A stretch of 64,000 nucleotides of DNA from Prosthecobacter debontii (GTDB lineage Bacteria > Verrucomicrobiota > Verrucomicrobiia > Verrucomicrobiales > Verrucomicrobiaceae). The notes under the pieces are model-generated. The model saw only the letters and a list, made by a program, of their open reading frames with translations, was not told the origin of the DNA and did no database searches. A program made the translations under genes and the position numbers. Of the stretch, positions 26,006 through 29,010 are shown piece after piece. The stretch lies in the NCBI GenBank assembly GCA_945860295.1, contig CAMAQH010000002.1, forward strand, positions 62,001 through 126,000. Direction: 5' to 3'. How positions within the stretch are numbered: the first letter of the stretch is position 1; each line of letters starts with the position of its first letter.

Positions 26006-26584
26006 TCAGAGACGATAAACGATGCGCGCCTTATCCATGTCATAGGGCGACATTTCGATCTTCACATTGTCGCCGATGACGAGACGAATGAACTTTTTGC
26101 GCATCTTCCCAGAAATGTGGGCGAGCACTTCATGTTCATTCTTCAATTTCACACGGAACATGGTTCCAGCGAGCACGGCAGAGATTGTGCCTTCGAGTTC
26201 GATGGCTTCCTCTTTCTGTTTCGTATCATCCTCAACAGGTTCCGGGCGGCGCACTGGTGCCGAGTAGCCACGACCTCGGCCGCGACTTCCGCCGCGACCT
26301 TTACCATTGCCAAAACTGCCTCCGGGACGCGAGGGTCCGTTGTAGGGACGCGGTGCACCTCCGGTGCTTCCTGGGGCACCTGTAGCTCCCGTTGCCGGTC
26401 CAGTCGCACCGGCTGGGCGCGGCGGCCCGCCAGTGTAAGGGCGTGGCGGCCCTCCTGTGCTCGAGCCGGCTGGTCCGGTCGCTGGGCGCGGCGGGCCTCC
26501 TGTAGCGGGACGTGGTGGTCCAGAAGTGGGTCCGCGATGCGGGCCTGGGCGGGGATTGTTACCTTTGTAGTTCGGGGATGCCAT
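26006..26584 (-). CDS. infA: Translation initiation factor IF-1 with long Pro/Gly/Arg-rich N-terminal extension
   Basis: 192 residues against about 72 for normal IF-1. Residues 123-192 are a full S1-like OB-fold IF-1 ([48 protein letters not shown]), which binds the 30S A site during initiation. Residues 1-122 are low complexity: GGPPRPATG-type repeats up to about residue 60, an Ala/Thr/Gly stretch, then [11 protein letters not shown] (96-106), an RG-rich RNA-binding type sequence. No Met lies between residue 1 and the core, so the short form would need a non-ATG start. Followed by a DEDD nuclease gene. Confidence 0.93.
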
Positions 26585-27175: not shown

Positions 27176-27336
27176 CTGCAGCCCACTTTCCCCTTGCCAA
27201 AAGGCGGATCGCTTCGATTATCACGGCCCTTTTGTCCGGCAGCCCATGGTTGCGCGGGACATCAGCCCGCCTAGCCCCTCCGGAGTGGAAGGTCCAGCGC
27301 GGTATCCCACCAACACTCCCAACCCAAAAAAATAGC

Positions 27337-29010
27337 ATGAGCGCACAAACACTCTCGGAAATGATCGCCGCATCATTCCGCGAACTCCACGAAGGATCCA
27401 TCGTCAAAGGCAGGATCCTTGAAATCAAACCGCAAGTCGTCCTCGTGGACATCGGTTACAAATCCGAAGGAGCCATCCCCTCCAACGAGTTTGAAGATGA
27501 AGACATCCAGGTCGGAGACGAGATCGAAGTCCTCCTCGAAAAACTGGAAAATGATGAAGGCATGGTCGTCCTGTCGAAGGAAAAGGCCGCCTACAAACAG
27601 AACTGGGAAAAGATTGCGATGGTGTTCCGCGATGGCGGACTCGTCAAAGGCAAGGTCAAATCCGTCGTCAAAGGTGGCCTCATGGTCAACGTCGGCGTCG
27701 AAGCCTTCCTCCCCGGTTCCCAAATCGACATCATCCCGCCGAAGGATCTCAACGAATACGTTGGCAAGGTCTTCGAATTCAAGATCGTCAAGATCAACGA
27801 CGACCGCAAAAACATCGTCCTCTCCCGTCGCGAAGTCATCGAAGCAGAGCGCGCCGAGCAGCGTCAGAAATTCCTCGATGGTGTCACCCCTGGTGACAAG
27901 GTCATCGGCGTGGTCAAGAACATCACCGACTTCGGTGTGTTCGTGGACCTCAATGGCATGGACGGTCTTCTCCACATCACCGACATGTCGTGGGGCCGCC
28001 TAAACCATCCTACCGAACTGGTCGGAATCGGTCAGCGCCTGGAAGTGCAGATCCTCGAAGTGAACCGCGAAAAAGAGCGTGTCTCCCTCGGCCTCAAGCA
28101 GCTCCAGAATAACCCTTGGGAAAACATTGAAGGCCGCTACCCATTGGGCCAGAACGTACGCGGCAAGGTCACCAAGCTCGTCGCTTACGGTGCCTTCTGC
28201 GAAATCGAAGAAGGAGTCGAAGGTCTTATCCACGTCTCCGAGCTTTCCTGGACCAAGCGCATCGCCCGTCCATCCGATGTGCTCACTGTGGGTCAAGAGA
28301 TCAATGCCGTCGTCCTTGGCATCAACAAAGACGAGCGCAAGATTAGCCTCGGCGTCCGCCAGCTGGACACCAATCCTTGGGACGACATCGACGTCCGCTA
28401 CCCGATCGGCACCCAGATCACCCGTCCGGTCCGCAATCTCACCGCTTACGGCGCCTTTGTGGAACTGGAAGAAGGTATCGACGGCATGATCCACGTCTCC
28501 GACCTCAGTTGGACACGCAAGATCAACCACCCATCCGAAATGCTCAAGAAAGGCCAGGAAGTCGAAGCCACCGTGCTCGGCATCGACAAGGCTAATCAGC
28601 GCATCAGCCTCGGCATGAAGCAGCTCGATACCGACCCATGGTCGATTATCGACACCCGCTTCAAGGTAGGCGATGTGGTGAAGGGCAAGGTCGCCAAGAT
28701 CGCCAGCTTCGGAGCCTTCATCGAACTCGAAGGTGACATTGACGGACTCGTTCACATCTCCCAGCTCAGCGAAGATCATGTGGCGAAGGTCAAAGACATC
28801 ATCAATGTCGGCGACGAAGTCGAAGCTCGCGTCATCAAAGTGGATAAGGTGGAGCGCCGTATCGGCCTCTCCGTCAAGGCCATGAACTACAGCGAAGCCG
28901 ACATCCAGAAGGAAAGCCAGGCCTTCGAAGCCCTCCGCCCAAGCACCGACCTCGTCGGACTCGAGCAGGCCTTCAAGTTCGCCAGCGAAGAATGGCGTCC
29001 GGGCGAATAA
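27337..29010 (+). CDS. rpsA: 30S ribosomal protein S1
   Basis: 557 residues from ATG 27337 (the open frame upstream is leader). Six S1 OB-fold repeats follow one another: two divergent N-terminal ones that dock on the ribosome, and four better conserved RNA-binding ones recognisable by DFGVFVDL, AYGAFCEIEEG, AYGAFVELEEG and SFGAFIELEG, each followed by LIHVSELSW-like strands. S1 brings mRNA to the 30S subunit. The leader lacks a strong Shine-Dalgarno, as is usual for rpsA. A strong terminator follows. Confidence 0.97.
   Translation: MSAQTLSEMIAASFRELHEGSIVKGRILEIKPQVVLVDIGYKSEGAIPSNEFEDEDIQVGDEIEVLLEKLENDEGMVVLSKEKAAYKQNWEKIAMVFRDGGLVKGKVKSVVKGGLMVNVGVEAFLPGSQIDIIPPKDLNEYVGKVFEFKIVKINDDRKNIVLSRREVIEAERAEQRQKFLDGVTPGDKVIGVVKNITDFGVFVDLNGMDGLLHITDMSWGRLNHPTELVGIGQRLEVQILEVNREKERVSLGLKQLQNNPWENIEGRYPLGQNVRGKVTKLVAYGAFCEIEEGVEGLIHVSELSWTKRIARPSDVLTVGQEINAVVLGINKDERKISLGVRQLDTNPWDDIDVRYPIGTQITRPVRNLTAYGAFVELEEGIDGMIHVSDLSWTRKINHPSEMLKKGQEVEATVLGIDKANQRISLGMKQLDTDPWSIIDTRFKVGDVVKGKVAKIASFGAFIELEGDIDGLVHISQLSEDHVAKVKDIINVGDEVEARVIKVDKVERRIGLSVKAMNYSEADIQKESQAFEALRPSTDLVGLEQAFKFASEEWRPGE

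Follow-up and report, generated by a model that had tools for sequence, protein, structure and literature searches.

The single IF-1 found in a Prosthecobacter debontii genome carries, ahead of a complete core, a 123-residue arm which is predicted to be disordered and positively charged, and comparison of infA sequences indicates that such arms are an order-wide trait of the Verrucomicrobiales able to sit at either end of the factor, not a feature of one protein. We propose that this cationic arm, resembling the tail of eIF1A, helps 30S subunits to initiate translation without Shine-Dalgarno (SD) pairing, a function to which we assign a probability of about one half. The usual picture of IF-1 is of an unvarying core of ~70 residues. 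A selected, disordered arm that occurs throughout an order, at one terminus or the other, suggests that one bacterial lineage has remodelled this A-site factor, and the arm would be a concrete, deletable candidate element for SD-less initiation in bacteria with an intact anti-SD. Throughout, the window refers to the whole 64,000-nucleotide stretch of DNA that was analysed.

The infA gene of the window

The infA open-reading frame (26006..26584, minus strand) is complete and encodes 192 amino acids, with an ATG start codon and a stop codon at 26006-26008. TIGR00008, the NCBIfam equivalog model for infA, matched residues 124-192 over its full length (model positions 1-69 of 69) at 100 bits, above the cut-off of 61.15 which assigns a protein to the IF-1 equivalog, and the Pfam eIF-1a family PF01176 matched residues 128-191 at 75.5 bits (cut-off 30.2). 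This core (residues 124-192; 26009..26215, minus strand), delimited by TIGR00008, the AlphaFold2 strands and matches to IF-1 structures in the PDB, was modelled as an OB fold, whose five strands and one short helix fall within residues 129-191 and have high pLDDT, with block means of 84–93 from residue 131 onward, the input being an alignment of 22 sequences including the window protein. The TIGR00008 match bears out the original prediction of a complete IF-1 at the C-terminal end, and the 122 residues which it placed before the core become 123 at the boundary of this model.

A PF01176 search of the whole source genome (95.3% complete) returned one match, the infA of the window, and the second standard infA that the prediction had named as its own counter-case was not found in that search. 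Same-genus genomes with a PF01176 match had one each, whilst five same-genus genomes had none (G006, G019, G021, G023 and G028), four of these five being <90% complete. Judged by these profile matches, the window open-reading frame is the IF-1 of this genome. It is like other bacterial IF-1 proteins (PDB 1AH9, 2N78, 1HR0 and others) in its full core, in the one copy found and in the OB fold of its model, but differs in what precedes the core: the 12 solved sequences have 71–87 residues with the match beginning at residue 2–10, whereas here a 123-residue arm comes first.

The arm (residues 1-123; 26216..26584, minus strand) is rich in Gly, Pro, Arg and Thr, and was delimited by composition, pLDDT and selection. 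AlphaFold2 placed no secondary structure at residues 1-128, pLDDT block means were 36–51 for residues 1-120, and the net charge is +12 over the 125 residues following Met (up to residue 126), making the arm, by prediction, an unstructured and positively charged terminal tail of the kind found in eIF1A. Structure prediction, composition and selection therefore all agree with the disordered, Arg-rich arm first proposed for this IF-1. It contains an RG-rich segment (residues 94-106; 26267..26305, minus strand), which overlaps the only tandem array found, and gives way to a charged linker between arm and core, recognised from its sequence (residues 115-126; 26207..26242, minus strand), in which K124-E126 is invariant across the 22-sequence alignment (window protein included). 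The absence of Met between arm and core was likewise confirmed, there being no ATG in between and one in-frame GTG, at Val111 (26252..26254, minus strand); because proline occupies this position in four close relatives (L012, L062, L063 and L065), this GTG is not a conserved internal start.

Several trivial origins of the arm were rejected. Assembly error in the repeat, which had been raised as a possible artefact, was not borne out, since closely similar arms recur in the separately assembled relatives L062, L063 and L065. Recent tandem duplication was rejected because one short DNA array was found in the arm, with a 12-bp unit in 2.8 copies (26267-26300). GGPPRP as a genome-wide fashion was also rejected, as its codon pattern occurs four times in the genome, three of them in infA.

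Distribution of the arm in Verrucomicrobiales and the class

Looking for the extension in infA of other Verrucomicrobiota, as originally suggested, revealed an arm in nearly all Verrucomicrobiales examined. Among 194 infA genes of this order (one per genome), 162 encode an N-terminal and 29 a C-terminal arm, called by a start rule with thresholds of ≥18 residues for N-terminal and ≥22 residues for C-terminal arms; the remaining three were G439 with a 16-residue basic N-terminal extension, G445 with none, and G499, which is cut by a contig end. No clear arm at both ends was found among the 194 genes: four (G047, G036, G488 and G477) were flagged at both termini by the 18-residue rule, but have an ATG ≤8 codons from the core and were counted as C-terminal. 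The 194 comprise the 188 matched genomes of 191 searched, minus G491 and G535, which were removed for having a weak paralogue match only, plus eight less complete genomes (G014, G016, G025, G026, G031, G034, G038 and G045). PF01176 had no match in three of the 191 genomes (G028, G462 and G443), and the second copies L108 (G484) and L166 (G049) stand outside the counts.

In families f1, f2, f4, f5 and f6, the arm is as a rule N-terminal, whilst family f3 is divided between five genera with C-terminal arms (g3, g7, g11, g215 and g216) and five with N-terminal arms (g8, g12, g14, g218 and g219). The N-terminal arms have a median length of 42 residues and range from 18 to 195 (n = 166, including the four doubly flagged genes later counted as C-terminal); in the same set, Gly (19.6%), Pro (17.3%) and Arg (15.9%) are prominent, and none of Val, Ile, Leu, Met, Phe, Tyr, Trp and Cys exceeds 1.3%. 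Net charge is positive in 158 of the 166 N-terminal arms, or 164 when the last 12 residues are left off, and in 29/29 C-terminal arms. By the start rule, seven of the 162 N-only arms have a net charge of zero or slightly below it, and in six of these seven the rule chose an ATG 19–20 residues before the core despite an earlier ATG. Longer arms tend to have a higher net charge (Spearman 0.44), which means that the charge is not kept at a fixed value.

Many genomes of the order also have a second, divergent IF-1-like PF01176 match (E-value ~1e-9 to 1e-4). These weak matches occur in genomes of f2, f3, f4 and f6, with none listed for the genus of the window; one of them, L166 (G049:C37), scores a much weaker 47.8 bits with the core profile, and such matches were kept outside the counts.

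Beyond the order, a short, basic C-terminal tail of 14–24 residues is encoded by 29/30 and 18/20 of the translated loci in two sets from elsewhere in the class; this sample covers 71 of 81 class genomes, with loci translated for 49 of the 71 and three second copies (L415, L421 and L422) included. The ten class genomes left out belong to families f10, f11, f15, f18, f19 and f21 and some are tail-less (L033, L034, L038, L045 and L057, whilst L040 has 13 residues); in the six loci of f10, f11, f15, f18 and f21, the core is followed by two residues, except in L040 with its 13. In the phylum-survey loci L032-L061, those six included, ≤13 residues follow the core, mostly two. Many related families of the class, though not every one, thus have short C-terminal basic tails.

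Selection on the arm

Pooled arm dN/dS in seven groups of close relatives was 0.29, 0.23, 0.07, 0.05, 0.30, 0.24 and 0.48, the value of 0.07 coming from the window's group (four usable pairs, five genomes); an eighth group had no usable pairs. Core dN/dS was 0.01–0.07 and core divergence far below that of the arm, which implies that the exact sequence of the arm is not critical. The third codon position was the most variable in 7/7 groups, accounting for 157 of 180 arm differences in the window's group. In three Prosthecobacter-type groups (the genus of the window), 136/136, 50/50 and 44/44 gaps within the arm were multiples of three, compared with 2/120, 0/12 and 7/26, respectively, upstream of the start, and in a group with AUC starts the corresponding figures were 139/211 in the arm and 0/119 upstream; gap and substitution counts come from pairs with shared ancestry, and the events are not independent. 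The arm, as read from these substitution and gap patterns, is evolving in frame as a constrained protein, and its recurrence in frame across the order with coding-type substitutions and indels places it beyond chance.

Shine-Dalgarno use and the start codons of infA

The ATG of the window infA (26582..26584, minus strand) has no SD word of ≥4 bases 3–12 nt upstream. In the window as a whole, such words precede 5 of 41 open-reading frames (12%) against a background of 18%, and 7 of 46 in a looser set. The counts, apart from the looser set, used open-reading frames of ≥200 amino acids with first-ATG starts, a rough assignment, in 60–100 kb per genome (20 kb for G163). Among genomes of the class, the percentage of open-reading frames with SD words and the background percentage were 24/20 in G015, 11/23 in G446, 19/20 in G046, 17/24 in G302, 15/21 in G039, 23/22 in G140, 21/21 in G085, 20/13 in G067, 19/20 in G174, 31/22 in G313 and 10/22 in G177. 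In three tail-less genomes from other classes, the values were 63% with a background of 12% (G166), 65% with 16% (G101) and 80% with 16% (G163, with 10 open-reading frames).

Nine tail-bearing genomes or families sampled therefore make little use of SD sequences, as do some tail-less relatives; the IF-1 tail of G174 has 13 residues, and the tail status of G313 was taken from its family f8, where two genomes (L408 and L409) have C-terminal tails. SD-poor genomes without an IF-1 tail were G067 (L057) and G085, in which the open frame, at 78 amino acids, is too short to include one. Among the lineages sampled, tails were confined to those that are SD-poor, and SD-poor lineages need not have tails. 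A strict equivalence between the tail and SD loss was rejected, as SD-poor, tail-less members of the class exist (G085 and G067). Akkermansia muciniphila is reported among SD-scarce organisms with a conserved CCUCC (PMC10783764).

The start codons of infA show a pattern of their own. In 24 of 193 assessable infA genes, all from family f2, no ATG, GTG, TTG or CTG lies in frame upstream of the core, and in 19 of these 24 an AAGGAG stands 4–9 nt before an ATC, ATT or ATA codon (ATH) at the head of the arm (L002-L006, L112, L113, L117, L118, L126, L129, L181, L197, L202, L203, L291, L293, L294 and L297). By their sequence, these 19 relatives therefore have the AUH start behind a strong SD that is typical of infC, which the window infA does not; the other five (genera g220, g224 and g225) are without such an SD, and GTG is the second core codon in five of the 24. 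Thirty genes were classed as ATH with SD, a class itself defined by AAGGAG, so that the 24 genes are the independent test of the association. A canonical codon lies somewhere in frame upstream of the core in 11 of the 30, making their start less certain; in eight of these 11 it includes an ATG (G039, G041, G045, G145, G426, G515, G522 and G539). Two f1 genomes classed as ATH without SD (G468 and G496) are ambiguous, a GTG standing immediately ahead of the ATH codon. Finding AAGGAG ahead of an ATH codon is not in itself diagnostic, since 100 kb of G046 contains two further open frames of this kind, and the case for ATH starts rests on conservation and on the absence of other start codons.

Amongst ATG-class infA genes, 144/154 (the window's included) are without an SD word of ≥4 bases. 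Together with the 19/24 above, this means that a weak start codon is mostly accompanied by a strong SD, and an ATG mostly by none. Both arrangements were seen within genus g2 of f2, where infA starts with ATC or ATT behind a strong SD in 14 genes and with ATG in 22 (for example, L002-L006 vs. L171-L173).

In Escherichia coli, IF3 is reported to discriminate against the AUU codon of its own gene infC, which limits its level (PMC9410913). The relatives' infA genes are alike in appearing to open with AUC, AUU or AUA behind AAGGAG, but the gene is a different one, autoregulation is suggested by analogy, and the window infA starts with ATG. In the lineages with an AUC, AUU or AUA start behind a strong SD, the fidelity of start-codon selection would adjust IF-1 output, just as it does that of IF-3 through AUU, and we infer from this analogy that the ATH start of infA may serve self-control in those relatives. 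IF-1 dosage may then follow start-codon fidelity in the way that IF-3 dosage does. As the window infA has an ATG without an SD, this regulatory step is not directly applicable to it. A second precedent is rpsU (bS21), which is reported to keep a very strong SD for feedback control in SD-blind Bacteroidia (PMC9976891); the likeness lies in a lineage with little SD use in which one translation-apparatus gene has a strong SD, whereas the gene here is infA and its start is non-AUG. In our own searches, bS21 was present in 25/25 genomes, and rpsU starts could be read in 7 of the 25 loci, with no AAGGAG in the five from this class. The gene infC was found in 40/40 genomes searched, with an apparent ATH start in many loci.

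A candidate role for the arm in 30S initiation

With IF-1 in the A site of the 30S subunit, a flexible Arg/Gly/Pro arm could reach along the 16S rRNA, the mRNA channel or IF-3 and supply a non-specific electrostatic grip, which would stabilise the mRNA and start-codon selection on messages lacking SD pairing. The parallel is eukaryotic eIF1A, whose basic N-terminal tail stabilises closed initiation complexes where the start site is weak; in yeast, this basic tail is reported to contact tRNAi, mRNA or 18S rRNA and to favour weak start sites (PMC5756025). The two factors share a homologous OB core and an unstructured basic tail (in the window protein, by prediction). They differ in that the yeast contact residues lie within positions 7–16 in the account given in the same paper, whereas the arms of the order are Gly/Pro/Arg-rich, of low complexity, up to 195 residues long and sometimes C-terminal. 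The window protein also falls far below the equivalog models for eIF1A and aIF1A (TIGR00523, 25.2 bits vs. 102.9; NF003082, 19.2 vs. 108), and the likeness of the arm to the eIF1A tail is one of character rather than of common ancestry.

An arm at either terminus would work if the only requirement is for a flexible, positively charged extension close to the decoding site. A similar pattern is known from the mitochondrial IF3 of yeast (Aim23p), in which either the N- or the C-terminal extension is reported to suffice (PMC6321546); it is alike in being an initiation-factor extension in an altered translation system, with an echo of the one-end-or-other pattern, and unlike in being IF-3 rather than IF-1, and mitochondrial. 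Since the human mitochondrial IF3 is reported in the same source to function in yeast without extensions, such extensions need not be essential. Similarly, SD-less initiation does not strictly depend on the tail, because the tail-less, SD-poor G085 and G067 exist, and G445, the one genome without an arm, was weighed against a role for it. Of the roles originally suggested for the arm (altered initiation, mRNA recruitment or condensates), the context favours one in 30S initiation. A fuller scenario, in which a class largely abandoning SD use evolved an eIF1A-like IF-1 tail that gave partial mRNA anchoring and relaxed start-site stringency, with AUC, AUU or AUA starts and strong-SD self-control arising later in some lineages and either terminus serving, is one we hold tentatively, as possible but doubtful in its entirety.

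Other readings of the arm account for part of these observations. It may be a tolerated by-product, low-complexity termini growing and shrinking where the exposed ends of IF-1 accept them, with selection acting only against stops and against hydrophobic or acidic residues. The wide range of lengths (18–195 residues), the strong differences in sequence between genera, and the predominance of Arg among charged residues, which GC-rich sequence of low complexity might well show, would all suit this explanation; it sits poorly with a single clear absence in 193 assessable genomes, with the part of f3 that has its arm at the other terminus instead, with arm dN/dS of 0.05–0.30 in 6/7 groups, and with a charge which is mostly positive and recurs in the short basic tails of many related families, and we consider it unlikely. 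Slightly less likely still is that the arm docks electrostatically onto another factor instead of RNA, pairing with the acidic C-terminal tail of IF-3 and coupling both fidelity factors on the 30S subunit. The C-domain of IF3 is reported to be able to contact IF1 on the 30S subunit (PMC8266586), and IF-3 of the order has an acidic C-terminal tail in 29/29 parsed loci (31 tried), with net charges of −4 to −22. Outside the order, the C-terminal net charge of IF-3 was +4 in G106 and 0 in G067, whose IF-1 has no tail, and −6 in G174, with its 13-residue IF-1 tail, although this comparison is drawn from 3 of 30 IF-3 loci that could be parsed. IF-3 in the genus of the window also has a long Gly/Pro/Arg-rich N-terminal extension, found in seven same-genus loci and in L306 from the window genome (L212, L213, L217, L219, L221, L233, L236 and L306). 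In most of these loci, the acidic C-terminal tail of IF-3 is His-rich.

Condensation or localisation of initiation complexes, driven by the RG-rich arm in an RNA-dependent manner, would draw on the RG-rich, Gly/Pro-rich segment and its predicted disorder. The arms of many relatives are, however, ~30–40 residues long without long RG repeats, and the C-terminal versions of related families, at 14–24 residues, are short for a general condensate role, making this explanation improbable. Most improbable of all is that the core alone is made from an internal start, the upstream frame being open by chance. Possible internal starts do exist, in the GTG at residue 111 of the window protein, in an ATG near the core in some relatives (for example, L008 and L170) and in the GTG that forms the second core codon in five of those 24 genes in which no start codon lies upstream; but the GTG at residue 111 is not conserved, 24/193 genes have no ATG, GTG, TTG or CTG upstream of the core and 19 of these have AAGGAG at the head of the arm, and substitutions and indels in the arm follow the patterns of coding sequence. 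A cationic arm that assists 30S initiation thus remains our preferred reading. Titles and abstract openings in the open-licence PubMed Central literature yielded neither an extended bacterial IF-1 nor a non-AUG infA; passages of a preprint from 2026 that deals with IF1 and IF2 describe an extension of IF2, not IF1 (PMC13345285), and a passage of PMC5037330 has nothing bearing on IF1 termini.

Genomic neighbourhood of infA

A gene of the RNase H-like/3'-5' exonuclease family (PF13482; 25448..25996, minus strand) lies 9 nt downstream of infA in the window, and a gene of this exonuclease family is present in the infA locus of 51/54 family f1 genomes. A sequence pattern for ribosomal protein L36 was found beside infA in 8/30 phylum-survey loci, compared with 0/194 loci of the order and 0/50 further loci of the class, as if infA in the order and class had departed from the usual ribosomal gene cluster. 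Upstream of infA and divergent from it is a gene for a PurA-like ssDNA/RNA-binding protein (PF04845; 26765-27175, plus strand), which adjoins the gene for ribosomal protein S1 (27232-29010, plus strand); the PurA-like gene was present in the infA locus of only 2/194 genomes, these loci being only a few kb long.
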